Assembly: GCA_020049775.1 (NCBI GenBank)
Contig: JAGVLO010000015.1
Coordinates: 186,001-250,000, forward strand
DNA length: 64,000 bases
Reading direction: 5' to 3'
Source: Alphaproteobacteria bacterium
Lineage (GTDB): Bacteria; Pseudomonadota; Alphaproteobacteria; Rickettsiales; SXRF01
The notes under the pieces: generated by a model
What the model saw: only the letters and a program-made list of their open reading frames with translations
The model's database searches: none
Told to the model about the DNA's origin: nothing
Made by a program: the position numbers and the translations under genes
Part shown: in pieces, positions 39,957 through 64,000 of the stretch
Numbering within the stretch: position 1 is the first letter of the stretch
Layout of the letters: every line of letters starts with the position of its first letter

Positions 39957-40403
39957 TTATGGTATGCGGAACACGCACACGACACGGCTTTGCCACCATG
40001 TATCCAGCTCGTGTTCAACTACCGCCCTTGCGGGTGCGTAGGCGTGTATGATGCGATATTCGCCTTTTTCTATACTTGCTACGGCCAGATGTTGCGGGCT
40101 ACCCTGAATATCCAGAAGCAGGATATCGCCTGAATCCATTTGTTCGCGTGGTATGCGTTGCAATAGTTCTGAAAGTCTTTTAGCGAGGTGTTTGCTGTCT
40201 GGATTATGCGGGTAGCTGGTTTCGTCATACAGCACCAACGCATTGCCCTTGCTATCCCGTAAGCCCAGCTCGACGGCGATCCCCACCAGCAGGCCGAGAC
40301 AATCCACCCCGCCCTTATGCGCGGCGGATTTTTTAAGCCTGCCCTGATGGTGAAAGCGCGTGCCTAGCCAGCCGCGTGCTGCGACTACTATTGCGTGTTC
40401 CAT
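39957..40403 (-). CDS. NlpC/P60-type tail peptidase (g14-like)
   Basis: A 148-residue cell-wall peptidase carried on the tail. The catalytic Cys is in GGVDCLGLLVG, with His in QHLAVASI and a third polar residue after HAYAPARAVVEH. The ending LDTWWQSRVVCVFRIP is typical of the GTA g14 family. It lies between the hub protein and the megatron as in RcGTA, separated from g13 by two inserted small genes. Confidence 0.92.
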   Translation of the reverse strand: MEHAIVVAARGWLGTRFHHQGRLKKSAAHKGGVDCLGLLVGIAVELGLRDSKGNALVLYDETSYPHNPDSKHLAKRLSELLQRIPREQMDSGDILLLDIQGSPQHLAVASIEKGEYRIIHAYAPARAVVEHELDTWWQSRVVCVFRIP

Positions 40404-40417
40404 AACGTTGGTTGATT

Positions 40418-40933
40418 TTATTCTTCGGTCTGCTGATGTTCAGCGCGGTCTTTTTGCGGACGGAAATGCGTGCGCATGGTCGGACGGCCAAACAGCGGGC
40501 GCTGGCCCATGCTCTTTGCATATGCCCAGACAAGCCCCGCCATGACCACAATGGACATGCCGAATACCCAGATGAAGGCGGCAATCGTCGTGTTGCCATA
40601 AACACCAATGATGCTGGCAGACACGAATACGGAAACAGCTATGAAGAAGCCAAGGAACTGGCCAAGCATGGTCGAAAAGCGGTAAATGCTCAGCGCCTGC
40701 TTTTCCCATTCATGGCGGTGTTTCTGTTCAATTTCGAACATATTGAGAATCATTTTTGCCGAGCCATCGACCACATAGTTGTAGCTTTCCAGCACTTCCG
40801 GATGCGGCAGCATTTCTACCGTACGATTCTGGACACGCTCGCGGTTATTGTTGTTTTGACGATAGCCGCCGGTTTTAATAGGGCGCTGTTCGTGGCCGCT
40901 TTGCTGATCGTTGTTATTCTGGTCGTTGCTCAT
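40418..40933 (-). CDS. DUF2335-like two-span membrane protein (inserted)
   Basis: A 171-residue protein: disordered Asn/Gln-rich N-terminus (about 1-35), the motif MLPHPEVLESYNYVVDGSAK (DUF2335 hallmark), an amphipathic helix, then two membrane spans (about 92-112 and 118-138) and a polar tail. DUF2335 proteins occur in prophages and on chromosomes; function is unknown, though two-span topology invites comparison with holins. It sits where g13 and g14 normally adjoin. Its start overlaps the 64-residue gene by 20 bases. Confidence 0.85.
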   Translation of the reverse strand: MSNDQNNNDQQSGHEQRPIKTGGYRQNNNNRERVQNRTVEMLPHPEVLESYNYVVDGSAKMILNMFEIEQKHRHEWEKQALSIYRFSTMLGQFLGFFIAVSVFVSASIIGVYGNTTIAAFIWVFGMSIVVMAGLVWAYAKSMGQRPLFGRPTMRTHFRPQKDRAEHQQTEE

Positions 40934-41185: not shown

Positions 41186-42049
41186 TTATTGGCTTCTTGT
41201 GCCTGCCGTTTCCAATATACGGTCCAGGCCAGGCACATGTGGCTCGCCACGAAAATTAGCAATATTATCAAAGCGTTGCTTGCATATCCCCAGTGTTTTA
41301 TCACAACCTTTGGTTATGCTGTAGCTGTCTGTAATTGATACAGTGTAGGGCATGGGCAACACGAGAATAATCTCACCGCCACTGGCAGACGAATGCAGGT
41401 ATTCCTTCACTTCCATACTGATTCCGGCATTAGAGCCGCCGGTAAATGTAATCATCCCCGAGGTGAACAAACCACTGGTTTCGCTGCGGCTGTTGTCGGT
41501 GAACTGCTGGTCGGATATTTTGGAAGTAACGCTGCCGGAAACAGTGTGTGATGCAATATTCACCTTACATCTTCCGTCGCCCAGTGTGGCGCGGCAAGAG
41601 GGAGAATACAACTCACCAATGGTTTGCGAGAGTTGCTGCGTCAAACCGCGTATTTCAGCCACAAACTGTTTTTTGTGAACCGACACCTCGCCCAGAATGC
41701 CAGACTTCAGATGTAATTTGCCCTGCGAAAGATCGGTATAGTTTACCTGAAATATCTCGATGGCAGCTAAATCGTAACGCCCACTTAGTATATCTTTTTC
41801 AGTGATAATATCGGCGCTCAGTATGCCATCGACATCGAGATTATCTACACTCAGCGCACCAGATGTTTCAATGGCGCTTGGAGTGAAGCCGCTGGAGGCT
41901 TTGTAGGTCGCGCTTTCAAAAACAATGTCGCGGTCGTGGCTGGTGAAGCCGAATACGGTATTATCTTTTCTGGTCAGCTTCCAGCAGGTAGCAAGCGATG
42001 TTACTTCCCCACTGATATGTGTTTCCAGTTCTGTGGATATGGTTTTCAT
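41186..42049 (-). CDS. DUF2163 / phage BR0599-family hub protein (g13-like)
   Basis: A 287-residue tail-tip protein. The family's cysteine pattern is present: SPSCRATLGDGRCKVN in the middle and GCDKTLGICKQRFDNIANF with RGEPHVPG near the C-terminus. These cysteines are thought to bind a metal or Fe-S cluster in the GTA hub. It starts five bases after the DUF2460 gene. Confidence 0.93.
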   Translation of the reverse strand: MKTISTELETHISGEVTSLATCWKLTRKDNTVFGFTSHDRDIVFESATYKASSGFTPSAIETSGALSVDNLDVDGILSADIITEKDILSGRYDLAAIEIFQVNYTDLSQGKLHLKSGILGEVSVHKKQFVAEIRGLTQQLSQTIGELYSPSCRATLGDGRCKVNIASHTVSGSVTSKISDQQFTDNSRSETSGLFTSGMITFTGGSNAGISMEVKEYLHSSASGGEIILVLPMPYTVSITDSYSITKGCDKTLGICKQRFDNIANFRGEPHVPGLDRILETAGTRSQ

Positions 42050-42053: not shown

Positions 42054-42653
42054 CTATACCCTTATCTCTACCAGTGGAATATCATTCCAGCTGTTGCTTC
42101 CGTAAGTGTCGAGTGTGGCGCTCAGTCGGTCCGTATCGAAACGCACGGGTACGTCAAACTCGAAATCAGCAGTGATTACTACGCCGGATGTCGGTGCGGT
42201 GGTGAATGTGACCTTGCCAGTGGACGTATCAAGGCTGTAACCGCTGCTTTGCAAAATGGAATTTGCATAGATATTTACAGTTCCGGCGATCGGCTTGCTG
42301 ATAATGCGCGACTCGGTAACCGTGCCACTATTGTAGCTTTTTAACAACTGGAAGATGGTTTGTATGCCGTTGCCGGTACCTATAGGCTGGCCGCTAGCGT
42401 TGTAGTCTGTCCAGTCTTTGAAGCGGAAGCCGTCAGCCATGCCTTTGCGCGCGCGGAAAAATGCAATCAATGTATTTAGCTGTGCTTGTGTTTTTATACC
42501 GTGGGCTACGTTGTAGCGTGCGCGTGCCTGTGACCAATTGCTATTGCGTTGCTCATAGCCGCTCTGACTTATGACAATGTCTGTGGAATATTCCGGTCCG
42601 CCGCCAGAGCCGTATGAAATATCGGTGGGGAAGCGTGTTTCGATGAACGCCAT
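42054..42653 (-). CDS. DUF2460 distal tail protein (g12-like)
   Basis: A 199-residue protein with the DUF2460 signature FIETRFPTDISYGSGGG near the start, the SRARYNVAHG-type segment (SQARARYNVAHGIKTQAQL) and GFRFKDWTDY. It forms the distal tail ring in RcGTA. It is the first gene of a unit that begins just after a minus-strand terminator, so the tail-tip genes have their own promoter, unlike the single long GTA transcript of Rhodobacter. Confidence 0.93.
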   Translation of the reverse strand: MAFIETRFPTDISYGSGGGPEYSTDIVISQSGYEQRNSNWSQARARYNVAHGIKTQAQLNTLIAFFRARKGMADGFRFKDWTDYNASGQPIGTGNGIQTIFQLLKSYNSGTVTESRIISKPIAGTVNIYANSILQSSGYSLDTSTGKVTFTTAPTSGVVITADFEFDVPVRFDTDRLSATLDTYGSNSWNDIPLVEIRV

Positions 42654-47897: not shown

Positions 47898-47979
47898 AGC
47901 GAGACCTGTAATATTAGTTTAAGGTAATGTTTCTAAATACTTGCATGTGCCTTTGTTAAGAGGCATAGTGCCGTCCATT

Positions 47980-48441
47980 ATGGCATTCAAAATTCATCTG
48001 ATTATTGTTTCAATAGTGATAGTTATTATGTATGTGGGTTGGCGCGTTCATGTGGCCTCTACTGTCGTGCCTGAGGCGCGAACCATAACCAAAACAACCT
48101 ATAATATTTCCATTATTCATGCCAGCTGGGGGCTTAATTGCCCGCTTTTTGTGGATGGTAAGTCAAACAGCCTCGATCAAGCCTATGTACAGGATAAATC
48201 TAACACTAATAAGCCGCATGCCGACAACGTATTGAAGCAAGTGTCAGAGTCCTGTAATGGCAAGGAGACATGCAGCATAACGGCTTCTGACGACGTATTT
48301 GGCGATATACTTCCAAAAGACTGTACTGAGCGGCAGCTGGACGTTGAATATCGCTGTTATGCATTTGACCGCCCGTGGCGCGAGCAGACCACCAGTAACA
48401 GCCTAGAGATAGACTGCACCTTAAAATACCCCACGCAATAA
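47980..48441 (+). CDS. Membrane-anchored protein with a SUEL/rhamnose-binding-lectin-like domain
   Basis: I chose ATG at 47980 (153 residues), which begins directly with a signal anchor (FKIHLIIVSIVIVIMYVGW); an upstream in-frame start at 47941 adds 13 residues. The exported part contains CNGKETCSITASDDVFGD, then CTERQLDVEYRC. This is the cysteine and VFGD pattern of the galactose/rhamnose-binding SUEL lectin domain, known mainly from animals and sporadically in bacteria. Additional cysteines (LNCPLF, DCTLKY) could complete the disulfides. Encoded on the plus strand inside the GTA-like cluster, next to a two-span PQ-rich protein. It may bind surface sugars; that is inferred from the motif. 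Confidence 0.72.
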   Translation: MAFKIHLIIVSIVIVIMYVGWRVHVASTVVPEARTITKTTYNISIIHASWGLNCPLFVDGKSNSLDQAYVQDKSNTNKPHADNVLKQVSESCNGKETCSITASDDVFGDILPKDCTERQLDVEYRCYAFDRPWREQTTSNSLEIDCTLKYPTQ

Positions 48442-48506
48442 ATCTCCGCTAGCCATATGGCGTCCAGATTAGTACACATATAGCAGGACAGGGAGACAAC
48501 AAAATC

Positions 48507-49592
48507 ATGTTGCCGTTTGTAGTTGCAGGCTTATTTCTGGTGGCGCTGGTGTTTAGTGCATATTGGCACAACACACAGAATAAACGTCTTATTGACCAGC
48601 TCAAGCGTGAGATGGACAAGGAAACGGCGCAATGGCTGGGAGAATTTACCTGGGCGCGTACCTTTCAATTATGGGCTGCTCTTGCCTGCGCGGTTTTGTT
48701 TACCGCAGTGACCGGATGGGAACTTTATTCCGCAAGACAGACTATCGGTGATTTTGATGTAGCACTTAAAAAAAGCGTGGATGAAATCAATAAATCCCGT
48801 ACGCAGATTGCACAGATGGAGCAGATAACATCGCATTACCCGCCACTGGTAGCGAACGCCCCTCCCTCCCAACCACCCCGGCAACCTCAGGTAGCACAAC
48901 AACAGCCGCCACAAAATAATGCACAGCCGCAAGTAGCTGCGCCAGTAGATGCTCCGGCTATTAATCCTCCTGCATGGCCACAAAATAATAATGCACCAGC
49001 AACACAGGTACAAATGCAACCACAGTCTCAGCAACAGCCTCCCGCGCAAGTACCCAGTGTCTCGGTTTCCGCGCAGGCGGTCGATGGCTATGACGAAGCA
49101 GCGGGTCTTGCACCTTCGGCTCAGAACGTGACAATTATATCGAGTCTGAATGATGGCAATATGAATGGCGTGAATCCCGAGGCGCCAAATGCGGCACAGC
49201 TGGAAACAGAGATTAATACGCAGCTGGCCAGTAACAACAATGCCGCTACGGTGGGAGACGTATATAATCCCGAGGAAATGTCATCAGATAAGCAATCGGC
49301 TATGGACTCGATAAAGAAAAGATATGAAGTCCTTCTCGTGAATTATCTTTTCCTGAAAAAATGCGGACTGATTAATCCGCAGGATTACCATGCCATCATT
49401 TCTTCCCTCGCCCGCGAGATGTCTTCAGTGAATGCACCCGGCCGGCTGGAGCATGACATAATGACAGCGGCAAAAGGCTCTTATGATGAAATGTACGCCA
49501 AAAGCAACTGCAACGACCAGAACACCAGCCAGCTTCATGCGCAATACAGCAATTATATAAACGCTATCTCGCAGAACCTGCCTACACCCTAG
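48507..49592 (+). CDS. Two-span membrane protein with Pro/Gln-rich region
   Basis: A 361-residue protein: span 1 about 3-20, a cytosolic-looking coiled segment, span 2 about 50-68, a short coiled coil (LKKSVDEINKSRTQIAQMEQ), then 100 residues rich in Pro, Gln and Asn, and a helical C-terminal domain with cysteines (FLKKCGLINPQDYH; KSNCND). The Pro/Gln tether suggests a periplasm-spanning linker. It follows the lectin-like gene after 65 bases and ends three bases from the opposed tail-protein stop. Not recognised as a family. Confidence 0.72.
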   Translation: MLPFVVAGLFLVALVFSAYWHNTQNKRLIDQLKREMDKETAQWLGEFTWARTFQLWAALACAVLFTAVTGWELYSARQTIGDFDVALKKSVDEINKSRTQIAQMEQITSHYPPLVANAPPSQPPRQPQVAQQQPPQNNAQPQVAAPVDAPAINPPAWPQNNNAPATQVQMQPQSQQQPPAQVPSVSVSAQAVDGYDEAAGLAPSAQNVTIISSLNDGNMNGVNPEAPNAAQLETEINTQLASNNNAATVGDVYNPEEMSSDKQSAMDSIKKRYEVLLVNYLFLKKCGLINPQDYHAIISSLAREMSSVNAPGRLEHDIMTAAKGSYDEMYAKSNCNDQNTSQLHAQYSNYINAISQNLPTP

Positions 49593-49595: not shown

Positions 49596-50012
49596 TTAGC
49601 CAGCCGCCGTATATTCCACCGCTCCGGCGCTCGTAAGTGTCATCTTATATATTTCTACATCGTCGTGTTCGCCGCTGCACTCATATTCCGTGATATGGAA
49701 CGATGCCGTAACGTAATCGCCATTGGCATAGAAAAAACGGTAGCGGTTTGCCTGTGTTCCAAACGCATGTGACCGCATCAGGCTTTCCGAGGCGCTGTCC
49801 ATAAAAATGCCGCTGCCTTTGATAGTCAATTCTTTGAGACCGGAAGCTTGCAGCAACTGCTGCCATGCGCCGGACTCTATATTGCTGCTTTCCAGCATCT
49901 GGCTATTAATGCGCATGACGGAAGTGCGGATACCGCCAATGGTCTGGAATGTTTCCGGACTACCGCCATTGCTGATTTTTATGAGTACCAGCTCCCCTTT
50001 TTTTGCCGACAT
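49596..50012 (-). CDS. Major tail protein, TP901-1 type (g9-like)
   Basis: A 138-residue tail-tube subunit. Typical features are KGELVLIKISNGGSPETFQT, the VMRINSQMLESSNIESGAW segment and the ending ITEYECSGEHDDVEIYKMTL. It follows DUF3168 after 14 bases, as g9 follows g8 in GTAs. The next GTA gene in standard order (g10) is not found downstream. Confidence 0.9.
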   Translation of the reverse strand: MSAKKGELVLIKISNGGSPETFQTIGGIRTSVMRINSQMLESSNIESGAWQQLLQASGLKELTIKGSGIFMDSASESLMRSHAFGTQANRYRFFYANGDYVTASFHITEYECSGEHDDVEIYKMTLTSAGAVEYTAAG

Positions 50013-50026
50013 AATCTATCCTGTTG

Positions 50027-50434
50027 TTATTCGCTATCATGCATCATAGCGTGCAGCTTGAGCATGCCGTGATATGTCCAGCCGTCATTTTCAAGAGTGA
50101 TGCTGCTTGCTATGAAACGCATGAAAACAAGTGATTGTCCGATGATGCTGATATTCTGGTTGTGCAGCAGGCTGTAGATTCTTTCCATGATGGAGGCAGT
50201 TTGCTTGCGCCCACCTTCCCTGCTCCATATATGTATTTCAAGTTCGTGCTTTGTGCCTGTGCTGGTTTTTGTGGACCAGTCACTGCACACAGATTCACCG
50301 ATGGTAATGTAGGGAAAGTCTGTATTCTGCGCTGGCCGGTCGAAAATTCCTGTTGCCATGCCTGACAAGGTTGCGTCACCTGACAACGTACCGTACAGCG
50401 CTGACTGCAGCGCGTTATGCGTTAATGTACTCAT
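50027..50434 (-). CDS. DUF3168 tail terminator (g8-like)
   Basis: A 135-residue protein of the DUF3168 family, which caps the tail tube at the neck. Visible signature: ALQSALYGTLSGDATL, FPYITIGESVCSDWSTKT, and the HIWSREGGRKQ segment. Overlaps the g7 gene by four bases (ATGA). Confidence 0.9.
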   Translation of the reverse strand: MSTLTHNALQSALYGTLSGDATLSGMATGIFDRPAQNTDFPYITIGESVCSDWSTKTSTGTKHELEIHIWSREGGRKQTASIMERIYSLLHNQNISIIGQSLVFMRFIASSITLENDGWTYHGMLKLHAMMHDSE

Positions 50435-50796
50435 GATGCCACACCTTCTTCCGCCAATATGTCGAGCTGTTCATTGCGCTCGTAATCATTAGCGACATGG
50501 CGTATGTTGAAAGCCCTGTCTTCAAACAGCAGGCGCATTGCCGTGGTTACCCCGCTGCGGTAACGCAGTATGATTTTATGCGTAAGCCGTGACTGGATTT
50601 GTCCCGCAAATAACTGCTCGCCACCGTGTGTTTTATTGCCGCTGCCGTTTTCGAGCGGAACAATTTCTGCCCATACATCGGCTATATTCTGCCAGCCACG
50701 TGTATAGCCTCCTTGGGTATCTGGCGTCATAACTTCTTCCTGTAGTGTCAATCTGTGGCGCAGGCGCGAGGACTTGTTTTTGCGTTTCCAGATCAT
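50431..50796 (-). CDS. Head-tail closure protein (g7-like, SPP1 gp16 type)
   Basis: A 121-residue stopper protein. Pattern LRHRLTLQEEV, GGYTRGWQNIADVWAEIVPL and the C-terminal FEDRAFNIRHVAN are standard for the phage head-tail adaptor family. Four-base overlaps with both g6 and g8 show coupled translation in an intact neck module. Confidence 0.9.
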   Translation of the reverse strand: MIWKRKNKSSRLRHRLTLQEEVMTPDTQGGYTRGWQNIADVWAEIVPLENGSGNKTHGGEQLFAGQIQSRLTHKIILRYRSGVTTAMRLLFEDRAFNIRHVANDYERNEQLDILAEEGVAS

Positions 50797-51365
50797 AACA
50801 TCACCTCGCGGAATGGCGCGAACAGGCTCAATGTTTGTTCCGGAATGGCGTTTTGCTCCTGCTCGCCACGGCTGTCGTACATACTTGCGATGTGCGACAA
50901 CATGCCCTGGCGAATAGGCATCGGCACGCCGGATGCATCTGCGCTGTAACCTGCGTTGTAAACAATCTCGATGTGAAAGCCGCCGGGAGCGCTGTCGAAC
51001 ATCAGCGCTGTCTTCGCAGTATTGAGATAATAGCCTGTGCTGTTGACGGCCTGTGTGCTTGCATCACGATTGATAATGGTAACACTGGTGATGCTATTCA
51101 CTGGCCCCATCGGCAGGTAAACCGATTCCGGCAGCATGTCGTCATAGCCAAGCTTCCATACCTGATTTATCAGCGAGCGGCGAAGCCAGTTTTCTGCTGT
51201 CATCCTTGATGCCACAATCATATCAGTAATAATCGTGTCTTCTGTTGTGCCGTCAATGCGTAGGTATGTTTTTGCCTGCGCGAGGGTTACCGGTTCTGAT
51301 GCCGGCGCGGTTATTCTTGTAAGCAGGCGGTGCGTTCCGCAGCTATTATTGTGATGATTATACAT
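50793..51365 (-). CDS. Head-tail connector (g6-like)
   Basis: A 190-residue adaptor of the gp6 family. Features: PASEPVTLAQAKTYLRIDG, DTIITDMIVASRMTAENWL and SVYLPMGPVNSITSVTI. I chose ATG at 51365 because a strong AAGGAG lies seven bases upstream; the frame extends 23 codons further without one. It begins the neck module g6-g7-g8-g9. Confidence 0.9.
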   Translation of the reverse strand: MYNHHNNSCGTHRLLTRITAPASEPVTLAQAKTYLRIDGTTEDTIITDMIVASRMTAENWLRRSLINQVWKLGYDDMLPESVYLPMGPVNSITSVTIINRDASTQAVNSTGYYLNTAKTALMFDSAPGGFHIEIVYNAGYSADASGVPMPIRQGMLSHIASMYDSRGEQEQNAIPEQTLSLFAPFREVML

Positions 51366-51460
51366 ATGTCTCCTTTGTGGATTAAGGCCACGCAATACGA
51401 ATCCTTCCCCGCTGCTGCGATGAGGTTCAATCATTAGAATTTTTATGAATGGGTTAGCGA

Positions 51461-53236: not shown

Positions 53237-54448
53237 TTAGCTCAGAGCAAGCAACTTGACGGCGTCGAAATTGACCACATCACCACCTACACGGGCGGTG
53301 GCGTAGAACTTCACAAACGGCTTTTCAGTAAATGGATCGCGCAGGATGCGGATGCCCTGACGGTCAACAATCTGGTAAGCCGCCTTGAAATCGCTGACAG
53401 CAACCGACAGCGAACCGGCAGAAGCCAGCGGCATGTCAGAAGCCATGACCACCGGAACACCAAGAAGTGTGTCCGGAGTGCCGGCAGCAAGACCAGGCTG
53501 CCACATATACTGGTTGGTGGTGGATTCCTTCAGGAGGCGCACAGACTGCACAACGGTGCGGTGCATCATGAAGTTCGCACGCTTCATGTGTGCGTCTTTA
53601 AGGCTATAAAACAGTGTGATAAGCGAATCCGCAGTGACAACACCGCTAGAACCGCTGGCTACCTGTTGAATCTGCCCCCAGCTGGTGCCTGACGCATAGG
53701 TCAGGATGCCGCGTGGCTGACCTACGCCATTGCCTGAAACGAATGCGGTGTTTTGCTTGCGCGAGAAGATGTCGGCGATTTTGGATGCCAGCCAGCTCTC
53801 GATATCAATAGCAGCGTCATCCACCAGTTTCTGTGTGGCTTTGGGTTGTGCATAAAGCTCATGCGTCGGCAGGTTGCGCTTTGCAAGCGTCGGCGTTGAA
53901 GTTTCGGTGACAGTTGCAGTCTCCGAGGTCCAGCCTGCAGCGGCCTGGTCGTGGTCGTCGATAAGCTCGAGCGCGTCAGACGAAATGGTCTCGATGGAGG
54001 CCATCTGGCGCATGGGCGAGCTTTCAAAGATAGCCTGCACGATTTTTGATGACATGGTGGGGGTTACCAGATAGCCGCCGTCAGGGTCAGAACCTACGGA
54101 AAGTGACTTGGTCTGGATAGCTTCCAGACCGGCGTCCATACCCTTGCGTAGGTAGTTACGGAAGGCCTTACCGTATTCATTGTTTTTCTGGTTGTAAGAC
54201 CCATCATAATGTCTATGAGACTCAACGTCGCCAGAAATTAACGGGCGGTTGTAGGCGGTCTCTAACTGGTCGAGTCGATTTTTATAGTTATCGAGCGATG
54301 TACTTATATTGTTTAAGTGTTCGTTATACAAAGGATCTGCATAGCCTTTACGCTCGATTTCACGCAGGCGTGCATCATTAATTTGTTTAAATTGTTCCCA
54401 CGCATTACCAAGGCCGGCAACGCGTTCGGTGATTTCTGAAATGCTCAT
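53237..54448 (-). CDS. HK97-fold major capsid protein (g5-like)
   Basis: A 403-residue capsid precursor. The N-terminal delta domain is a coiled coil (about 1-75). The HK97 core begins near 105 and contains SVGSDPDGGYLVTPTMSSKI, then the SPMRQMASIETISSDALELI region, FVSGNGVGQPRGIL and DTLLGVPVVMASDMPLAS. I chose ATG at 54448, which has AAAGAGGA upstream; 13 more codons are open. A hairpin with a T-run lies in its leader. It is separated from the protease by two plus-strand cargo genes. Confidence 0.95.
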   Translation of the reverse strand: MSISEITERVAGLGNAWEQFKQINDARLREIERKGYADPLYNEHLNNISTSLDNYKNRLDQLETAYNRPLISGDVESHRHYDGSYNQKNNEYGKAFRNYLRKGMDAGLEAIQTKSLSVGSDPDGGYLVTPTMSSKIVQAIFESSPMRQMASIETISSDALELIDDHDQAAAGWTSETATVTETSTPTLAKRNLPTHELYAQPKATQKLVDDAAIDIESWLASKIADIFSRKQNTAFVSGNGVGQPRGILTYASGTSWGQIQQVASGSSGVVTADSLITLFYSLKDAHMKRANFMMHRTVVQSVRLLKESTTNQYMWQPGLAAGTPDTLLGVPVVMASDMPLASAGSLSVAVSDFKAAYQIVDRQGIRILRDPFTEKPFVKFYATARVGGDVVNFDAVKLLALS

Positions 54449-54470
54449 AAATTCCTCTTTAGTGTTAATA

Positions 54471-54504
54471 ATAAAAAGCCATGTCACTGAGTGATGGCAT
54501 GGCT
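54471..54504 (-). promoter_or_regulatory. Terminator-like hairpin in the capsid gene leader
   Basis: On the minus strand AGCCATG...CATGGCT arms, extended by TCACT/AGTGA with a 3-base bulge, are followed by TTTTT. The hairpin is 22 bases upstream of the capsid ATG. A TTGACA element lies further upstream on the same strand (around 54540). It could be an attenuator for the capsid gene, or a terminator stopping transcription that comes from the protease side. Confidence 0.5.
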
Positions 54505-55520: not shown

Positions 55521-56117
55521 CTAGCTGCGCAACTGTGCTATTGCGTTGTCCAGTGTGTCAGACAACTTTACCAACTCACCGCTCCTGCGCGCATTTTCCC
55601 ATAAACTTTCCTCAGCGTAGCCCATGGCCTTTACTTTGGTTATGGACGCATCACTGTTTGCCGGAAAAGTCACGATACTGATTTCCCATAAATCCACTTC
55701 CGCTAGCAAACGAACGCCGGTTTGAGGATCGATGGTATAGCGCAGCGGAGAATAGCCGATAGACAGCCCACTGATAGCCCCCACTTTCAGTAATGTGTAG
55801 GCTTCGTTTGCACGCTGCACATTTAACAGCAGCATGCCCTCGACGTATAATCCATGTTCATCTTCCGACAGCTTTGTCAGGACGCCGATAGGCTCTTCCT
55901 GCTGGTGCTGCCAAAGGAATTTGATGGATGACAGCGGCTTTTTTACTGTGCTTGCAAATGCGCCGCGCAGCATGATGTCACGCTGGTTATCGACGATATT
56001 GAAAACACTGGCATAGCCGCTGAAACGCCCTTCCCTGTCTAGCGATTTAAGCTGCAGGGAAAAGTCGAGATGCTTGCGCTCACGCATGGTGGCGCTTACT
56101 TTTTTATCGATATACAT
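55521..56117 (-). CDS. HK97-family prohead protease (g4-like)
   Basis: A 198-residue maturation protease (herpesvirus-type fold). Features: GYASVFNIVDNQRDIMLRGA, catalytic His in FLWQHQQEEPIG, catalytic Ser in GAISGLSIGY, and VDLWEISIVTFPAN. It processes the capsid precursor; family and order (after portal, before capsid) match RcGTA g4, with b561/YceI inserted upstream. Confidence 0.95.
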   Translation of the reverse strand: MYIDKKVSATMRERKHLDFSLQLKSLDREGRFSGYASVFNIVDNQRDIMLRGAFASTVKKPLSSIKFLWQHQQEEPIGVLTKLSEDEHGLYVEGMLLLNVQRANEAYTLLKVGAISGLSIGYSPLRYTIDPQTGVRLLAEVDLWEISIVTFPANSDASITKVKAMGYAEESLWENARRSGELVKLSDTLDNAIAQLRS

Positions 56118-56140: not shown

Positions 56141-56707
56141 TTACAGCTTTTGTGCCGTGATGTGAAACTCGACGCGCACTTCATTTTTAATGCTTTCGTC
56201 TTTTGCCCACTCGCCTTCACCGACATTAAAATCATTACGCATGATGGTGGCGCTGCCGCTGGCAACGGCAGATGTGTCATCCATTTTTTCCATTACAAAA
56301 TGCAAGGCAACGGGAAGCGTCTTGTTTTTAAGCGTTAGTGTGCCTTCTGCGGTATATTTATTGTCCTTTAAATGTGTGATGACAGTGGCTTTATATAGCG
56401 CTTTAGGGAAATCTTTAGCCGCGAACCACTCGGAGCCAGCCAGCGTCTGCGCAACGGACATGTCCGCCATGTGCAGGCTGGCAAGGTCTATTTCCACATC
56501 AATGCTACTTTTATCAAGCTGCTTCGGGTCAAATAGAATTTTAGCCGTAAATGTTTTGAATGTGCCTTCAAGCGGCGCGTTGTTCTGCGTGGTAATAAAT
56601 TTAAGGGAGCTTTTATCGGCGACAACACTATAGGTAGGCACATCCGCCAGAGCAGCGGGGATAAAACATAGCAGGCTAGCAACCAGCCATAGTATCGGAT
56701 TGCGCAT
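56141..56707 (-). CDS. YceI-like periplasmic lipocalin-fold protein
   Basis: A 188-residue exported protein: signal peptide about 1-21 (ending ALADVPTY), then a YceI beta barrel that binds isoprenoids such as ubiquinone (SSLKFITTQNNAPLEGTFKT; IDLASLHMADMSVAQTLAGS; MRNDFNVGEG). YceI proteins are commonly encoded with cytochrome b561, as here, with a 32-base overlap. The pair is out of place between portal and protease genes. Confidence 0.93.
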   Translation of the reverse strand: MRNPILWLVASLLCFIPAALADVPTYSVVADKSSLKFITTQNNAPLEGTFKTFTAKILFDPKQLDKSSIDVEIDLASLHMADMSVAQTLAGSEWFAAKDFPKALYKATVITHLKDNKYTAEGTLTLKNKTLPVALHFVMEKMDDTSAVASGSATIMRNDFNVGEGEWAKDESIKNEVRVEFHITAQKL

Positions 56708-57269
56708 AGGAATCGTCCTTCAGTTTGCCGTAAGGCAACATTCTTCTCAGAATATTATCTTTGTAAATAAAATGGTGCAGTAAAGCCGCGCCCGCATGTA
56801 ATGCAATGGTCGCCATCAGGCCCCACGCCATTAGTGCATGGGCTTCTTTAAAAAATCCCCTTAAGTCCTGTGATGGCCCAATGAGGTCAGGCATGGTGAA
56901 TAAACCAAACACCGAAACAGGATAGCCCGCCGCAGACGACATGGCCCAGCCGGAAAGTGGCATGGCGAACATGAAAAAATACAATAGCAGGTGCGCGCCA
57001 GTCGCCGCTTTCTTTTGCCATTGCTTAAGTGAATTCGGCATTAGCGGCGACTGGTTACGCAGTTTCCACACCAGCCGGAGCGCTGCAAGGAACAACACGA
57101 TGATGCCAATAGCTTTATGATTGCCTATCAGTTTGAGCTTGTCGGGGCTTGTGTCCATGTCGGCCATTATCAGTCCGATAATAATCAGCCCAATAATTAG
57201 AACGGCCATCAACCAGTGCAACAACTTGGTAATGCTTCCGTAAACCAGCGAATTATTTTTTAATGGCAT
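56676..57269 (-). CDS. Cytochrome b561 family protein
   Basis: A 197-residue four-span quinol-oxidising dihaem cytochrome of the bacterial b561 type. Haem-ligand histidines are visible in KLLHWLMAV, GNHKAIG, GAHLLLY and the C-terminal IALHAGAALLHHFIYKD. It probably moves electrons from ubiquinol to an acceptor such as superoxide. Coupled to YceI; inserted between the portal and protease genes. Confidence 0.93.
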   Translation of the reverse strand: MPLKNNSLVYGSITKLLHWLMAVLIIGLIIIGLIMADMDTSPDKLKLIGNHKAIGIIVLFLAALRLVWKLRNQSPLMPNSLKQWQKKAATGAHLLLYFFMFAMPLSGWAMSSAAGYPVSVFGLFTMPDLIGPSQDLRGFFKEAHALMAWGLMATIALHAGAALLHHFIYKDNILRRMLPYGKLKDDSYAQSDTMAGC

Positions 57270-57332: not shown

Positions 57333-58604
57333 TTATGCGTCTGGCTTTACGGCGCGACGCTTTGGGCCATAGCCAACGGCGGCGCGCTTTTCATCTTCGG
57401 TCAGGAAGCTGGCTTTTTCCACCCTTTCCCAGATAAGCTGGTTACGACCGGCAAGTGCCGACACATTATCCGTATCCGGCACCAGTTCGGCGCGTTCATT
57501 GAACAAGAAAGGCAGCCAGTTGTTCAGGCCATCGGTGGTGGCCTGCACCAGCGGCAGCACCGTTTGCTCCCAAAGGGCGAGCCTTGCTTCCTGCAGGTTG
57601 GAATAGGTGTTGTCACCCGGTATGCCCAGCAATTGCGGCGGCACACCGAAGGCAAGCGCAATATCACGCGCAGAGGCGTGCTTGGCTTCGATAAAGTCCA
57701 TATCACGCGGGGACATGCTCATTTCTTTCCACTCAAGCCCGCCTTCAAGCAGTATTGGACGTCCTGCATTGGCTGCGCCTGTAAACTGTTCATCAATTTG
57801 CTGCTTCACGCGGTGGTATTGGTCTTCGGAAAGAACGGAGTTTCCGGTTTTATCGCCACGCACGACCAGCGCACCGCTTGGGCGTGCGCCATTCTGCAAT
57901 AGTGACTGATTCCATGCACCGGACTGGTTATGCTGATCTATGCTGTAGGCCGCCGCCTCTACAGGGGAAAGCCCATACCAGTCATTGAGCGGGTGGAACG
58001 TTTTTAAATGCAATATGCGAGAGCGGCCTGTGATGCGATCCACAGGGAAATCGATGCCCTGATTATTTACCGTATATCTATACCCCGCAGGCAACCCGCC
58101 CTTGCCCGCCAGCACTGCCACGCGGTCGGGCCGCAGCAGATGCAACTCTGCCGGAGGCCTGTCTTTGGGTCCGATAGACTGTACAAACGCGTTTCCGCTA
58201 ATCAGTAGATATTGATACATGGAGTGCAGGAACGCACCATTCGCCTGCGTGGGGTTGGGGCGCTTGAGTAATTCAATAATCGGGTGAGCGCTTGCTTCAC
58301 GCCGCGCACCGCGCTGACCTGTTATATATAAGGTAAAACCAACCGAGGCCGCCGCCCATGCCACCATATTGATAGAGCGGTTGGCAATAACGTTACGTAC
58401 ATAGGCTTCCATTGAAAACTGAGCGTAGTTCCTGTCCATCCATACCGGCTGGCCGGGCATGACCATATAGGAGCGCTGCTGCGAACTTCCATGCAACTCG
58501 CTATAAACCCCGCCATGTTTCTTTTCCGGCGTGGCGGCGAACCATCTATTCAGAAGTCTGGAAAATACGCTACCCCGTGCAGCATTGCCTTGCAGTGCCT
58601 TCAT
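57333..58604 (-). CDS. HK97-type portal protein (g3-like)
   Basis: A 423-residue portal. Features: SMEAYVRNVIANRSINMVA, HPIIELLKRPNPTQANGAFL, LRPDRVAVLAG, then FHPLNDWYGLSPVEAAAYSI and GVPPQLLGIPGDNTYSNLQE. ATG at 58604 has AAGGAG upstream; the frame stays open 17 codons further. Length is normal for the family. It is preceded by a terminator, so it has its own promoter between 58605 and 58720. Confidence 0.95.
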   Translation of the reverse strand: MKALQGNAARGSVFSRLLNRWFAATPEKKHGGVYSELHGSSQQRSYMVMPGQPVWMDRNYAQFSMEAYVRNVIANRSINMVAWAAASVGFTLYITGQRGARREASAHPIIELLKRPNPTQANGAFLHSMYQYLLISGNAFVQSIGPKDRPPAELHLLRPDRVAVLAGKGGLPAGYRYTVNNQGIDFPVDRITGRSRILHLKTFHPLNDWYGLSPVEAAAYSIDQHNQSGAWNQSLLQNGARPSGALVVRGDKTGNSVLSEDQYHRVKQQIDEQFTGAANAGRPILLEGGLEWKEMSMSPRDMDFIEAKHASARDIALAFGVPPQLLGIPGDNTYSNLQEARLALWEQTVLPLVQATTDGLNNWLPFLFNERAELVPDTDNVSALAGRNQLIWERVEKASFLTEDEKRAAVGYGPKRRAVKPDA

Positions 58605-58720
58605 GCCTGTCTCCTTGGAATAATATATGTGGGATTGTCTGCCAGCTGCGGTCACACGAAAGCCAGCGTATATTTAAGTTTGTAATGCGCGTTCTCGTGT
58701 CCCGGAAGGAGGAAAATGCA

Positions 58721-58985: not shown

Positions 58986-59267
58986 TTAGTTACGTTTTTC
59001 TTCTTGTTTTCTGACGAGGTCTTGTGCCACGTTCAAAGCAATTGCACGCACTTTTGCAGGCTGAACCAGCATGCCGTGTTCATCACGCACATTGGCAAAA
59101 AGACTGGTAAGCCAAGGACGTAATTTTTCGGCAACTTCCATAATGATGTTGCCTTTAGTCACGGGTACAGCACGTTTAACGACCTGTACCCCTCCCGCGC
59201 GGTTATCTGCGCTTTCGGTGTGGCTTTTCGCCTTTTCTACCCAATTATTAATAGCGTCGTTTGACAT
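58986..59267 (-). CDS. 93-residue hypothetical protein after the terminase
   Basis: Unrecognised soluble helical protein (MSNDAINNWVEKAKSHTESA; AVPVTKGNIIMEVAEKLRPW). It starts 62 bases downstream of a perfect TTAA-N7-TTAA box and forms a two-gene unit with the 59-residue protein. A packaging-related role is possible by position only. Confidence 0.6.
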   Translation of the reverse strand: MSNDAINNWVEKAKSHTESADNRAGGVQVVKRAVPVTKGNIIMEVAEKLRPWLTSLFANVRDEHGMLVQPAKVRAIALNVAQDLVRKQEEKRN

Positions 59268-59369: not shown

Positions 59370-60347
59370 CTAAAGCACTCTAACCCTTAGTTTTTCTAAT
59401 ACACCCAGGCGTAGCCAATCGAGATACTGGGTTAGTGCATCCACCTGATCATCATGCATTCCATTCGGAAACCGGAGCAATTCATCTTCAAATGCAGCCA
59501 GCCATGGCGCATCTTCGGGCAGCACAAGCCTGCCTGCCTCGATCATGGCGGATACGGCGGCAAAGCGCGTTACCTTATCGTTCTTTGGCATCAGCCCGAT
59601 GACCGCTATTTCGCCTTCCCTGCGTAAATCCTGTATGAGCTGCTGGCCGCTGGCTTTGTCTTCCACCAGCACCGCGTGCGGTTTACAGCGCGTGTAAAGA
59701 TTATAGACGGACTTTTTCAGGTCGGGATATTCGCAGCGCATAACGGCAACATCGATCAGGTAGCTGCGTCCATCATGCTCATGAAATGTCAGGCACACGC
59801 TGGCATCATTGCGCGCACCCGATTTTATCGCCGTGTCCCAGCTTTGCACCCGCCGTGTAATATCCATAGGTACTGTCTTGTAGCGGCCAAACCACCAGGC
59901 ACGTAGCATGTTGCCTTCTTCCGGCACAGGTTGCTGCTGGAACTGTGCGGAAAATGCCATGCTGCCTAACTCCCTTTTTGTGCGCTCTATGGTTTCTGCA
60001 TTTTCGCGCCCATCATGAAGGAACTCGCCTATTTCACGTGTTTTACACACTGCGCCAAAATCATGCACTTCGCGGGCAGCCGCCACCATCGGCAGGCAAA
60101 GATGCTGCCACCCGCCTTTTTCCAGTAAATAGCCTGTTAAATCGTCCTGATGCAGGCGCTGCATCACCAGTACAATTACACCTTTTCGTTTGTCATTGAG
60201 CCTGCTGGCAAAGGTATGGTCGAACCATTGGTTGACCAGCTTGCGGTGCAGCGGGCTGATGGCCTGCATAGGGTTGATGGGATCGTCGAGAATCAGGAAA
60301 TTGCCGCCCTCGCCCGTTAAACTACCGCCGACGGATGGGCGCGCCAT
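59370..60347 (-). CDS. Terminase large subunit, N-terminally truncated (g2-like)
   Basis: A 325-residue remnant or variant of TerL. Present: GGSLTGEGGNFLILDDPI with the Walker B segment near residue 20, QRLHQDDLTGYLLEKGGWQH (coupling motif), and the RNase-H-like nuclease with acidic residues in VQSWDTAIKSG, VLVEDKASG and HDDQVDALTQYLDW. Missing: the first 150-200 residues with the Walker A P-loop. The frame continues only nine codons upstream (P-E-L-C-K-E-K-W-P) to a stop, and neither that region nor the other frames encode the absent part. No ribosome-binding site precedes its ATG. It may be a pseudogene, a deletion allele, or a nuclease-only protein. Confidence 0.88.
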   Translation of the reverse strand: MARPSVGGSLTGEGGNFLILDDPINPMQAISPLHRKLVNQWFDHTFASRLNDKRKGVIVLVMQRLHQDDLTGYLLEKGGWQHLCLPMVAAAREVHDFGAVCKTREIGEFLHDGRENAETIERTKRELGSMAFSAQFQQQPVPEEGNMLRAWWFGRYKTVPMDITRRVQSWDTAIKSGARNDASVCLTFHEHDGRSYLIDVAVMRCEYPDLKKSVYNLYTRCKPHAVLVEDKASGQQLIQDLRREGEIAVIGLMPKNDKVTRFAAVSAMIEAGRLVLPEDAPWLAAFEDELLRFPNGMHDDQVDALTQYLDWLRLGVLEKLRVRVL

Positions 60348-60577
60348 GGGCCATTTTTCCTTACATAGTTCTGGTTACGACCACATCACCCTAACCGCTA
60401 ATATATTGTTCAGGAATAGGAAACCGGCTGTCATAAATTGTACGCCATGTCGTCATATAGCTGTCACATTTCACTTAACCCCCGTGTAATAAGGCACTTA
60501 ATGGACAGTTCACACCGTTTGCCCCTGCCCTTTGGTATTCTGAATTTAAGAACACAACAAAAACTAAGGGCAAGAAA

Positions 60578-60769
60578 ATGGAAGCAGTTCATGAAATGTA
60601 CGAAGACCTCGGAGCGAGCGGTAACGTACTTGGCGGCCTCAGCCCCACCTTCCATACAAGCTCTACAGCCAGTCACTCCGCAGCCGATATAGACATTACC
60701 GCAGAACTGGCAAAGCTCGGCGCAGTCATCGCGAAGTTTAACCCCCGGGAAGTGAACATATGGGGTTAA
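60578..60769 (+). CDS. 63-residue hypothetical protein, divergent from the terminase
   Basis: ATG with an AAGGGCAAG ribosome-binding site. Sequence MYEDLGASGNVLGGLSPTFH, then a Ser/His/Ala stretch and a C-terminal helix (ITAELAKLGAVIAKFN). No known domain. Its 3' end overlaps the next gene by ten bases, indicating coupled expression. It begins a plus-strand set that runs to 62909. Confidence 0.6.
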   Translation: MEAVHEMYEDLGASGNVLGGLSPTFHTSSTASHSAADIDITAELAKLGAVIAKFNPREVNIWG

Positions 60770-61491
60770 TGAAATTCATCTACCACGAAGCCGGATCCGG
60801 ATACCAGCAGACACTGAAAAAACTCAGTGATGATTTCTGGGAGGGTATGGGCGGTAAACAGCCAGACAAATTTGAGTGTGAAAATGTTGACGCAGCAGGC
60901 GCACCTTCTCATACACCTGACGAATCACCCATTAGGTTAAAAGACCCAAACGAAGTGAATGGCATTGTGTTGCCGCAGAATGTAATCAATCAGCTGCGTC
61001 TTTTAGGCCTGCCTATCGAAGCATATACAGCCGGTGAATTGCAGGACGCAGTACTTGCCTGCTCTGCTGACGCAACACTGGTAGATGATCATGAGGGCAT
61101 TGGTCTTCGTGATAAACTTCGCCTTGATGGAAGTGAAAAAGAAGAACGCCGCCTGAGAAGGGAAGCACGCATCTGCAGAATGCAGGAAGAAGAAAAACAC
61201 CATTGTGATGAAATGCATAAAGAGCATTTGCTGATGGAAGAGCATGATGAATACACGATGTCAGATTTGCATCTTGATATTAGAACGCGTAATGAGCGTA
61301 TCCGCGAACGTCAGGAAGAACGCGCAAGGCGCAGAGCAACCAGGCCTGTAGAGAATATATTCACGGGCCTTAAGCTACTTTCTAACCCAATTGAAATTTC
61401 AGAGTGTGATGATTTTAGCCATGGCCTGAGTGCAATTCCCTACCTGCACATGCAGAAATGCCATGAGGCAACAGTAGCTTTCGCTGCCTAA
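60760..61491 (+). CDS. Hypothetical charged helical protein, 243 residues
   Basis: Not recognised. A central region of about 70 residues is very rich in Glu, Arg and His (EEERRLRR-type helix with KHHCDEMHKEHLLMEEHDEY) and would be a long charged coiled coil. The N-terminal region is Asp/Pro-rich and the C-terminal region less charged. Coupled to the preceding 63-residue gene. An AT-rich gap with the palindrome AGGATATATCCT follows. Confidence 0.65.
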   Translation: MGLMKFIYHEAGSGYQQTLKKLSDDFWEGMGGKQPDKFECENVDAAGAPSHTPDESPIRLKDPNEVNGIVLPQNVINQLRLLGLPIEAYTAGELQDAVLACSADATLVDDHEGIGLRDKLRLDGSEKEERRLRREARICRMQEEEKHHCDEMHKEHLLMEEHDEYTMSDLHLDIRTRNERIRERQEERARRRATRPVENIFTGLKLLSNPIEISECDDFSHGLSAIPYLHMQKCHEATVAFAA

Positions 61492-61667
61492 TTTCCCCCT
61501 TCCCGACAATGGATATTTCCTAATATCATCTGGATAAGTCGTATTCATAGGAATTTTATATTTTTTAATTAATCTATATATATCAATAGATATAAAATAG
61601 CCGTTGATACAAATTAGGATATATCCTATTTAGTGGGTAAATCTTATTATCTGGGGCGGGGATTTTG

Positions 61668-62087
61668 ATGGAAGGCATTCAGAAATCGAAAAAGAACACA
61701 AAAATGGTAAAAGCCACACCAATAGATTTCCTTGGCAAAACCTATGATAGCACACGTGGAGAAACAGCCCTGTGGTCAGCTGTCATTACGCAAGCGCTAA
61801 TGGACGCGCTCACCCGCTCCCGCAATCCCGAAGCCCTCTATAGTAAACACACGGCCATTGCATGGCTAACAGGCAACAGCAAGGATTTTATCATGGTGTG
61901 CCTGTGTGCCGGTTTTGAGCCGGATTATGTACGCAAGAAAGCAAAACGCGCTATCGCCTCGCCCCAGCGCTGGCGAGCCGAACCCGGAAAGGGCAAACGT
62001 TATCTGGAGCGCAAGAAATACCGCAACACAAAAAGCAGTAAATCTACGGAATCACCGCCAGTTGCACCCGTAAATGAATATGCATGA
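61668..62087 (+). CDS. Probable DNA-binding protein of a phage/GTA-associated type
   Basis: A 139-residue basic protein. The core NPEALYSKHTAIAWLTGNSK, then VCLCAGFEPDYVRKKAKRAI, is the pattern of a small protein class seen near phage and GTA genes in alphaproteobacteria, with a helical, likely DNA-binding fold; the C-terminus is Lys/Arg-rich. ATG at 61668 follows a GGGGCGGGG purine-rich site. It is the first of three closely spaced genes (61668-62909). Confidence 0.65.
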   Translation: MEGIQKSKKNTKMVKATPIDFLGKTYDSTRGETALWSAVITQALMDALTRSRNPEALYSKHTAIAWLTGNSKDFIMVCLCAGFEPDYVRKKAKRAIASPQRWRAEPGKGKRYLERKKYRNTKSSKSTESPPVAPVNEYA

Positions 62088-62106
62088 ATCAAGTAAGGAA
62101 TAAAAA

Positions 62107-62379
62107 ATGATATCATCACTATTAAATAATTCACTATCTGTGCAACCTTCGCGATTAAGCGAAATTGTTAGCTCTATTGCATCGGAATGCAGCCTTTCCA
62201 ACACGGAAGAGCGACAGCTTTATAGCGCAGTGAAACACCTCCCTGAAGATATCCTGTGCGCGGCTTATGTACATTTGCGCAGGCGGCATTTTGCATCGTT
62301 GCATTTTCTGCTGGCGGCATTGCATGAGTTTATAGCGCCTGAGTTACTTCATAGGAGCAATCACCATCAGGAGGTATAA
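62107..62379 (+). CDS. Hypothetical helical protein, 90 residues
   Basis: Unrecognised. Predicted by eye as four helices (LSEIVSSIASECSLSNTEER; LPEDILCAAYVHLRRRHFAS). It lies between the two putative DNA-binding proteins, and the AGGAGG ribosome-binding site of the next gene is within its last codons, so the three are one operon. Confidence 0.6.
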   Translation: MISSLLNNSLSVQPSRLSEIVSSIASECSLSNTEERQLYSAVKHLPEDILCAAYVHLRRRHFASLHFLLAALHEFIAPELLHRSNHHQEV

Positions 62380-62381
62380 TC

Positions 62382-62909
62382 ATGCCCTCAGTCAATGAAC
62401 CACATGCTGTAATATTGCGTTTTCCACGCAGGCGCGGCCGGCCAAGGATTATCCGCGCGGAAAAAGACCGTGGTACGCCCGAGCTGATTCAGAAAAAATG
62501 CATGGGAGAAACGTCGGAGGTACTGGATCTGTGCTTCGAGCGTAGGCTCATTACGCCGGAGCAGCACTGGTGTGGCATTCATTTGCGCTGGCTCTACACC
62601 CTGCGTTACGGTATTCCCACCATACGCGCCATAGACCCCACCCATATGGGGGGGCTTGAAACAAAAGCAAACGACCAGCAATGGCGTATCCAGCGTGAGA
62701 AAGAATATAGTGACGCCATTACATGCCTGAACAAGACCGGCCACGCGTCATTGCTGATGAGTATATGTATATATAATGAGAGGCCGCCATTGATGAACAG
62801 ATCAAAACTTACAGGTGCAAGGCAATCCAGGAGATCGCTGGCCTTCATTCATGCCCTTACCTTGGGACTAGATGCACTCCATGAGCATTGGAAGGCTACT
62901 CAAGACTAA
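62382..62909 (+). CDS. AT-hook-like DNA-binding protein of unknown role
   Basis: A 175-residue protein. An N-terminal RRRGRPRIIR is an AT-hook-type motif (core RGRP). The next block, GTPELIQKKCMGETSEVLDL followed by ITPEQHWCGIHLRWLYTLRY, is a compact helical domain conserved in proteins of this type in alphaproteobacteria as I recall it. A strong AGGAGG site precedes the ATG. Placement upstream of the pilin and divergent from the GTA genes makes a regulatory role plausible, but unproven. Confidence 0.65.
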   Translation: MPSVNEPHAVILRFPRRRGRPRIIRAEKDRGTPELIQKKCMGETSEVLDLCFERRLITPEQHWCGIHLRWLYTLRYGIPTIRAIDPTHMGGLETKANDQQWRIQREKEYSDAITCLNKTGHASLLMSICIYNERPPLMNRSKLTGARQSRRSLAFIHALTLGLDALHEHWKATQD

Positions 62910-63241
62910 AAAAACGCGTGGTTAATATGATAAGTTAATCGTATTTTTTCGCAAAAATTATTTAAAATCACATTTAGTTAGCCATATTAGTTAATTATCT
63001 TTGCATAAAAAAGCGTATTTGTGCTTATGATTCATAACGCATATTTACAATTGTCGTTAACCTCGAGTGATGCGTTAATATCAATTTAAGTAAAAATTTA
63101 GACTTTTTTTACTCAAAACGCATTGAAATTAAATAAGAAAATAGCGTTTTTTAACTTGTGGGCCTCACCGCTTTTTGATACATTAATAATTAGCTGATGA
63201 GTTCAGCGTTTTTAGGTTAAAAAGTAAAAGGAGTAATGACC
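62910..63241. other. 332-base AT-rich gene-free region upstream of the pilin
   Basis: No coding frame was seen. It holds the CtrA-type box at 63075-63089, further single TTAA elements, and five A-rich GCGT/ACGC words (for example AAAACGC near 63115 and GCGTTTTTT near 63150, which form an inverted pair). It is the likely promoter and regulatory region of the Flp pilin. Confidence 0.6.
63075..63089. promoter_or_regulatory. Perfect CtrA-type box upstream of the Flp pilin
   Basis: TTAATATCAATTTAA matches TTAA-N7-TTAA exactly, 153 bases before the pilin ATG. Caulobacter pilA is a known CtrA-activated gene, so this site is biologically reasonable. Confidence 0.6.
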
Positions 63242-63403
63242 ATGACAAACATGATTCGCTTTCTGAAAGATGAAGATGGTGCAACCGCTATTGAGTACGG
63301 CCTTATCGCTGCTCTGATTTCCGTTGCTGCCATCACCGCAATGGGCGCTCTGGGTAGTGCGCTTACCACTCTGTTCAATAACGTAGCGACCAACCTGCGT
63401 TAA
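63242..63403 (+). CDS. Flp/Fap-type pilin
   Basis: A 53-residue type IVb pilin subunit: short basic leader (MTNMIRFLKDEDG), the conserved ATAIEYGLIAAL processing and helix region, then a hydrophobic helix and a short tail ending TNLR. Prepilin peptidase would cut before the A/T-A-I-E segment, leaving Glu at position five. Built by a Tad secretion system located elsewhere. AAGGAG site at proper distance; own terminator 30 bases after the stop. Confidence 0.96.
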   Translation: MTNMIRFLKDEDGATAIEYGLIAALISVAAITAMGALGSALTTLFNNVATNLR

Positions 63404-63432
63404 TTGACAGAAGGGTAGAAACCCACTGAAAA

Positions 63433-63462
63433 GACCCGCCCCCTAAAAAGGGCGGGTTTTTT
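63433..63462 (+). terminator. Intrinsic terminator after the pilin gene
   Basis: ACCCGCCC and GGGCGGGT pair around an 8-base CCTAAAAA-type loop, followed by six T residues. Confidence 0.93.
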
Positions 63463-63516
63463 AATGTCGTGTAATTGTGTTTTGACACCACATATAGATT
63501 GATGTAGTGTGTGTTT

Positions 63517-63870
63517 ATGCAATATGTAGGTTATTGTAAGAACTTTACCTTCCTGCCGGCGGCTTCAAACGATAATGATGACTTGCTGGCCCTTTCTGTC
63601 CCCTCTTATGATCTGGCCTTTATTCGCGATATAAAGCGCCATTTAAGGCATGAGAATGCCCAAAGCGGGATTTTGCTCAGCTCACGCAAAGAGCGTCGCT
63701 TTTTCCAGGAAGTCGTGGATGCCGAGCGTTATATCATTTTGCGCTATTTTACCATCAACACACCGGAAGATGTCCTGCGTAGCCTGAAACGGCACATTCT
63801 GGACCATTACTTCTTCCCGCGCATGAAGCGTAAACACAAAAACAAGCGGATGAAAAAGCCCGCTGACTAA
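63517..63870 (+). CDS. Hypothetical protein, 117 residues, basic C-terminus
   Basis: Unrecognised. Mixed alpha/beta (LALSVPSYDLAFIRDIKRHL; RRFFQEVVDAERYIILRYFT) with a Lys/Arg-rich tail (MKRKHKNKRMKKPAD) that suggests nucleic-acid contact. ATG at 63517 is used; a GTG six bases earlier is possible. It meets the opposed gene at 63867 tail to tail with a four-base overlap. Confidence 0.6.
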   Translation: MQYVGYCKNFTFLPAASNDNDDLLALSVPSYDLAFIRDIKRHLRHENAQSGILLSSRKERRFFQEVVDAERYIILRYFTINTPEDVLRSLKRHILDHYFFPRMKRKHKNKRMKKPAD

Positions 63871-64000
63871 GGGATTTTCTTAGGCGTAAGACTTAGCGCC
63901 GTTTCTTCTGATGTCTTTCTTTCAACACTGTTGAGCGCCACCAGCCCGTCTTTGGTCAGGTAACCGCCTTTACCTATTATACCGTCACTGGTCAGTTGTT
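63867..64000 (-). CDS. C-terminal part of an unknown protein (partial)
   Basis: A minus-strand frame is open from the right edge to a TAG at 63867-63869, giving 43 residues (GGYLTKDGLVALNSVERKTS, ending LTPKKIP). Too short to identify. Confidence 0.5.
   Translation of the reverse strand, partial: QLTSDGIIGKGGYLTKDGLVALNSVERKTSEETALSLTPKKIP

Follow-up and report, generated by a model that had tools for sequence, protein, structure and literature searches.

The 64,000-nucleotide stretch of DNA analysed here (the window) carries an RcGTA-like gene cluster from which, with a probability of roughly 0.78, one in-place deletion of ~0.77 kb removed the packaging genes and thereby abolished packaging. 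Most likely this is a real feature, a packaging-null gene transfer agent (GTA) of fairly recent date, ordinary in kind and instructive in detail. The original prediction had recognised a large terminase subunit (TerL) without its ATPase half and offered lost packaging, a motor supplied elsewhere or a nuclease-only protein as explanations, of which the first is best supported and the other two are not borne out. Beyond that prediction, we found that a small terminase (TerS)-sized ORF is gone as well, that the start codon of the surviving ORF is apparently that of the lost one, and that the element is RcGTA-like.

What is left of TerL comprises the Walker B part of the ATPase domain and the whole nuclease domain:

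59370–60347, minus strand: TerL remnant ORF, 325 aa, reading MARP and then TerL residue 142 to the end
60279–60299, minus strand: Walker B region FLILDDP (residues 17–23), placed by alignment, kept without a P-loop
59424–59843, minus strand: TerL RNase H-like nuclease domain (residues 169–308), from PF17289, conserved acidic residues and predicted fold

The remnant ORF begins with ATG and, as originally described, is preceded by nine open codons and then a stop, giving an open frame of 334 codons. In an alignment with 29 relatives, homology starts at S5 (SVGG...), shortly before Walker B as had been proposed, and the P-loop-like PPRxxKS motif and the N-terminal half of the relatives' TerL are absent. 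Since S5 pairs with residue 142 of the L004 TerL, ~141 residues have been lost, which upholds the predicted absence of the P-loop half and lowers the 150 to 200 missing residues first estimated. The remnant covers only positions 393–704 of the 760 in the PHROG 38 (large terminase) profile, and a Pfam search matched its residues 169–308 to PF17289 (TerL nuclease). The nuclease residues are intact, in agreement with the original prediction: across the 23 rows of an alignment D171, E229, D299, D300 and D303 do not vary, and D230 hardly does. A predicted model (mean pLDDT 83.6, pTM 0.72, residues 1–12 disordered) resembles solved terminases and isolated terminase nuclease domains, including that of phage G20c (5m1q, TM-score 0.68 by target length); a sequence search of the remnant against solved structures gave no matches at E 0.1. 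Sequence and model together place the remnant among the RNase H-like TerL nucleases. C185 likely occupies the column of the GTA-type cysteine, judged from an alignment containing no RcGTA sequence, and is shared by three of five IMG/VR sequences; a passage of PMC7947584 places this cysteine of the TerL nuclease domain at RcGTA position 292.

The boundary of the missing segment lies at about 60335/60336 and was located by comparison with the same-genus genome G001, the nearest relative:

60336–60347, minus strand: codons M-A-R-P, the start codon aligning with that of the G001 TerS-like ORF
60398–60557, no strand assigned: retained upstream non-coding DNA, a 162-column match (74.7%) to the DNA preceding the G001 TerS-like ORF
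60578–60769, plus strand: small divergent ORF, 63 aa, with a similar ORF at the same place in G001 (L173:2698-2928) by eye
60760–61491, plus strand: divergent flanking gene, 243 aa, syntenic upstream of TerL in relatives
61665–62087, plus strand: divergent flanking gene, 140 aa, syntenic in relatives
62382–62909, plus strand: divergent flanking gene, 175 aa, syntenic in relatives

In a global alignment, ATGGCGCGCCCA of the window pairs with ATGGCACCCCCC of G001 at the start codon, and MARP stands opposite MAPP. Given this alignment, the ORF can be read as MARP joined in frame to TerL from residue 142 on: its first four residues align with the TerS-like ORF start and do not belong to TerL, and the codon after MARP is TerL S142 (L004 numbering). 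The TerS-sized ORF and TerL codons 1–141 are gone from the window, ~0.77 kb as judged by G001, where 357 bp between the two start codons are added to 423 bp of TerL. By chance, a deletion would end in frame one time in three. The flanking genes and promoter-side DNA of the window are collinear with those of relatives, with their order kept; between the small divergent ORF and the start codon lie 231 bp in the window and 265 bp in G001. The 60398–60557 match was found at one of 14 loci searched, that of G001, and went undetected at the 13 others. This non-coding DNA is a candidate GTA promoter or regulator site.

Three other origins of the short ORF were rejected. Truncation by a contig end does not apply, the ORF being internal to a 283 kb contig, and a rearrangement displacing the N-terminal half is contradicted by the collinear flanks and by the failure to find that half in the assembly. 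A decayed or frameshifted N-terminal half upstream was likewise dismissed, as a search of window positions 60341–64000 with the TerL N-terminal halves of the family and the G001 TerS-like protein returned nothing better than E 0.09.

Full-length TerL (461–484 aa) is present in 12 of the 16 genomes of the family sample, which includes the window genome, and the idea that the short form is universal, named originally as something that would refute the prediction, is therefore rejected. G012 has only a decayed TerL remnant of 212 aa, TerL was not found in G014 (55% complete), and the G001 contig ends within the N-terminal half, so the nuclease half of the nearest relative is not visible. Among 71 relatives, the C-terminal half was matched in 55 and the N-terminal half in 54, with the C-terminal half only in the window genome (G000), G012 and G048, and the N-terminal half only in G001 and G022. 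Directly upstream of TerL, all 12 full-length family loci and G001 carry an ORF of 109–137 aa, which we read as TerS by its place, size and weak mutual similarity; at annotation threshold it matched no Pfam or PHROG family. The g1 gene of RcGTA is also small and directly precedes terL, according to a passage of PMC6854486. A small-terminase ORF directly upstream of terL, a criterion for a large RcGTA-like element, is missing from the window locus, as is a TerL with both ATPase and nuclease domains, the nuclease being there and the P-loop half gone.

A second TerL was sought in the window genome assembly (2.54 Mb in 15 contigs, listed as 100% complete with 0.05% contamination) using PHROG 38, PF03354, PF03237 and the N-terminal half as queries. 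The 59370–60347 locus was the sole PHROG 38 match, PF03354 had no match in the assembly, and the N-terminal query returned only a 20-residue overlap with the remnant, or nothing. PF03237 also had no matches, a result of little weight because the full-length TerL of a relative was equally unmatched by this family. Thus neither the separate N-terminal half nor the second full TerL that the original prediction had proposed looking for was found. The best match of a TerS query in the same genome (E 0.225) lay on another contig, within an open frame of 519 codons, and is unconvincing. TerS appears too variable for such a search, as G005 and G013 gave no match at E ≤1 though both carry the upstream ORF, and a displaced TerS copy could consequently exist in the window genome.

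The rest of the cluster is laid out as follows:

58986–59267, minus strand: 93-aa ORF, which follows TerL in family loci
57333–58655, minus strand: portal, closest solved structure RcGTA Rcc01684 (E 6.7e-94)
56676–57269, minus strand: cytochrome b561-like gene, inside the head module
56141–56707, minus strand: YceI-like gene, inside the head module
55521–56117, minus strand: HK97-type prohead protease
53237–54487, minus strand: major capsid protein, closest solved structure RcGTA Rcc01687 (E 7.1e-76)
49596–51434, minus strand: head-tail connector, head closure, 135-aa ORF and tail-tube-like ORF by NCBIfam, the 135-aa ORF having no NCBIfam match and the tail-tube match lying below the cut-off
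42054–42653, minus strand: distal tail protein, Rcc01695 family (TIGR02217)
41186–42049, minus strand: phage/gene transfer agent baseplate hub protein (TIGR02218), best solved structure an RcGTA chain (E 3.1e-49)
39957–40403, minus strand: 148-aa ORF, conserved in relatives (PHROG 329, minor tail)
36258–39926, minus strand: 1222-aa tail protein (PHROG 4271), at the RcGTA gp15 place
33204–33494: holin-like ORF, 96 aa, preceding the lysozyme, by eye
32752–33207, minus strand: phage lysozyme (PF00959), endolysin candidate

Portal, protease, capsid, head-tail connector, distal tail, hub and gp15-like tail protein were identified by family or solved-structure searches. Likeness to RcGTA was measured directly for four of the products, and we regard the cluster as an RcGTA-like element because the portal, capsid and hub are closest to RcGTA structures and the distal tail protein is of the Rcc01695 family. 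An ordinary prophage was rejected on the same ranking of portal, capsid and hub among solved structures. By position, the 148-aa ORF presumably corresponds to the RcGTA cell-wall peptidase. Apart from TerL, 19 ORFs of the cluster have open frames; for 16 of these there are relatives of similar length, and three large ORFs of the tape-measure region (45521, 43832, 42739) have weak or partial relatives only. Among viral contigs, no portal relative was found, nor any close relative (best identity 50% among the best 80 of 268).

Several genes are interspersed in this order. The cytochrome b561 and YceI pair (56141–57269) lies between portal and protease and recurs in the same stretch in G001, G002, G007, G009, G011 and G012; it is absent from the fetched loci of G003 and G008. 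A DUF2335 membrane protein (40418–40933), encoded between the hub and peptidase-like genes, shows 61–78% identity in six of the searched loci of relatives, placing it among the better-conserved cluster genes. The tail module also contains a lectin-like gene (SUEL_Lectin) and a 361-aa gene on the opposite strand (47941–49592), whose place is conserved in relatives.

In a conserved-site test limited to sequences with more than 75% query coverage (which excluded G012 and G001 for TerL), the TerL remnant departs at two of 70 otherwise family-invariant sites (M87, F136), and intact genomes (n=13) bracket this value with 0 to 9 departures at 68 to 77 invariant TerL sites. Other window proteins depart at 4 of 162 (portal), 4 of 142 (capsid) and 1 of 52 (protease) such sites. 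With so few departures, the remnant has not been long in free drift, which points either to a recent loss or to a remnant still under constraint, which these data do not separate.

TerL genes in more than one piece occur elsewhere in the order Rickettsiales, where PHROG 38 matched 252 of 343 genomes; split genes were counted in 60 chosen genomes that were searched again, which are not a random sample. In family f29, nine of the 12 TerL-bearing genomes encode separate ATPase and nuclease ORFs and three a single ORF:

L302–L310: f29 split loci, in G327, G317, G323, G321, G320, G322, G326, G316 and G319

The ATPase ORFs (297–322 aa) and nuclease ORFs (162–208 aa) are separated at the domain linker; they overlap in three genomes and lie up to ~15 kb apart in G326. 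PPRxxKS is found in all nine ATPase ORFs and a Walker B pattern in four; SWDT, ED(K/R)ASG and HDD occur in all nine nuclease ORFs, and a portal gene was found in six of the nine fetched loci. As judged from these sequences, a TerL nuclease can occupy its own gene. The TerL of G278 (family f15, L311/L312) looks split too, across two contigs. In the titles and abstract beginnings of the literature searched, no split bacterial or GTA TerL was recognised, and the f29 arrangement is a side finding that is perhaps more novel than the window lesion. A two-gene TerL family would make the coupling of motor and nuclease, a long-standing question, directly testable. It is not what the window shows, because the f29 nuclease has an ATPase partner and a different break.

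Other TerL genes of the order are disrupted or displaced. In G022 (L188:7766-8872), the N-terminal half runs in frame into the tail hub, joining it at about hub residue 82, and queries with the TerL C-terminal half, portal and capsid found no match, the nuclease half being absent at the locus. The TerL of G024 has a stop and a frameshift, and that of G063 is interrupted by ORFs resembling transposase by eye. Breaks in several genera seem clustered just before or at Walker B, an impression for which the window, G022, G024 and G063 were read directly and the rest taken from local-match ends, which can mislead. In genus g6 (G006, G010; L034–L037, L176, L177) the full-length TerL is remote from the portal and capsid genes, at ~0.39 Mb on the same contig in G006 and on a different contig in G010.

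Might TerS and TerL be intact in the real genome, or in most cells, the join having come from the assembler or from a minority strain? We think this unlikely. The junction is known from a single assembly, the conserved sites of the remnant resemble those of a working gene, and the junction has no exact matches in the viral contigs, a collection that possibly lacks very near genomes; but the join is tidy, in frame and well inside a long contig of a 15-contig assembly listed as complete, and the left and right flanks of relatives have, by eye, no long shared stretch that could mislead an assembler. The nuclease-only protein of the original prediction, a fused ORF selected as a stand-alone nuclease under the GTA promoter with or without packaging, gained no positive support, and we judge it highly improbable. 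It would suit that the frame is kept across the join, that the upstream DNA is still in place, that the nuclease residues are intact and that divergence is ordinary, as would the fit of the model (mean pLDDT 83.6) to solved terminase nucleases and the stand-alone nuclease ORFs of f29. Against this, ~130–150 residues of broken ATPase domain are kept, needless for a dedicated nuclease; in f29 the cut falls at the domain linker and the nuclease ORF is accompanied by an ATPase ORF, no such partner being found in the window genome; and the form was seen in no other genome examined. A bolder version, in which the in-frame join is selected and working, a stand-alone terminase nuclease is expressed from the GTA promoter and the former DNA-transfer agent is now a DNA-free particle or lysis device needing neither TerS nor motor, strikes us as more doubtful still.

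Hardest to credit is a terminase completed in trans by the ATPase of another phage or of a separate gene. Distant ATPase and nuclease genes such as those of f29, up to ~15 kb apart, would be a precedent, but the PHROG 38, PF03354 and N-terminal half queries showed no second TerL in the 2.54 Mb, contrary to the motor supplied elsewhere that had originally been considered; moreover, the remnant keeps the second part of the ATPase domain, unlike the f29 split, and the TerS-like ORF is missing as well.

Deletion of the packaging genes remains our preferred reading. A single and recent event would have removed the TerS-like ORF almost entirely, together with TerL codons 1–141 (the P-loop half of the ATPase), joined the first four TerS-like codons in frame to TerL codon 142, and left the GTA promoter region and the remaining head, tail and lysis genes in place. 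Once the cluster was switched on, portal and capsid would assemble, no DNA would be threaded into the capsid for want of a motor, and maturation and tail joining would come to a halt, as they do when g1 is deleted in R. capsulatus; the nuclease half would be made with no motor to serve. Packaging would thus be dead, and the cluster probably makes empty particles. Cheats that produce no particles are considered a threat to GTA clusters, and pseudogenised clusters have been interpreted as recent cheats (PMC10883770), of which this locus would be an early example. With the lysis genes still present, the lesion may not spare its carrier from lysis. It gives the impression of a system in the first stages of being lost and not of a new machine, and packaging lost with head, tail and lysis genes kept would be a clear, dateable first step that lets one ask whether packaging goes first.

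The overall gene order of the window cluster is, we take it, that of RcGTA. It differs from RcGTA in having no TerS-like ORF and no P-loop half of TerL, and in the cytochrome b561, YceI and DUF2335 genes inside it. The split TerLs of f29 resemble the window in that the ORF for the nuclease does not include the ATPase half, whereas their break falls at the domain linker with the ATPase ORF kept, and that of the window within the ATPase domain (TerL residue 142), with no partner found. Closer in expected outcome are the R. capsulatus g1 (TerS) deletion mutants treated in passages of PMC6854486, in which, as in the window, the small terminase is lost and capsid and portal genes are kept; those mutants are laboratory-made with TerL whole, whereas here half of TerL has gone too. 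Cells without gp1 release capsid-portal particles in which DNA is undetectable and which have almost no tail proteins, as a portion of that report describes (PMC6854486). By analogy, the same or an earlier stop would be expected here, because both TerS and the ATP-binding half of TerL are gone. Pseudogenised GTA clusters have been described in alphaproteobacteria and, in a section of a 2024 discussion, considered possible recent cheats (PMC10883770). Like the window cluster, those covered there are disabled in one lineage and kept by relatives; unlike them, the window cluster has been hit in its packaging genes only, with the rest still open.
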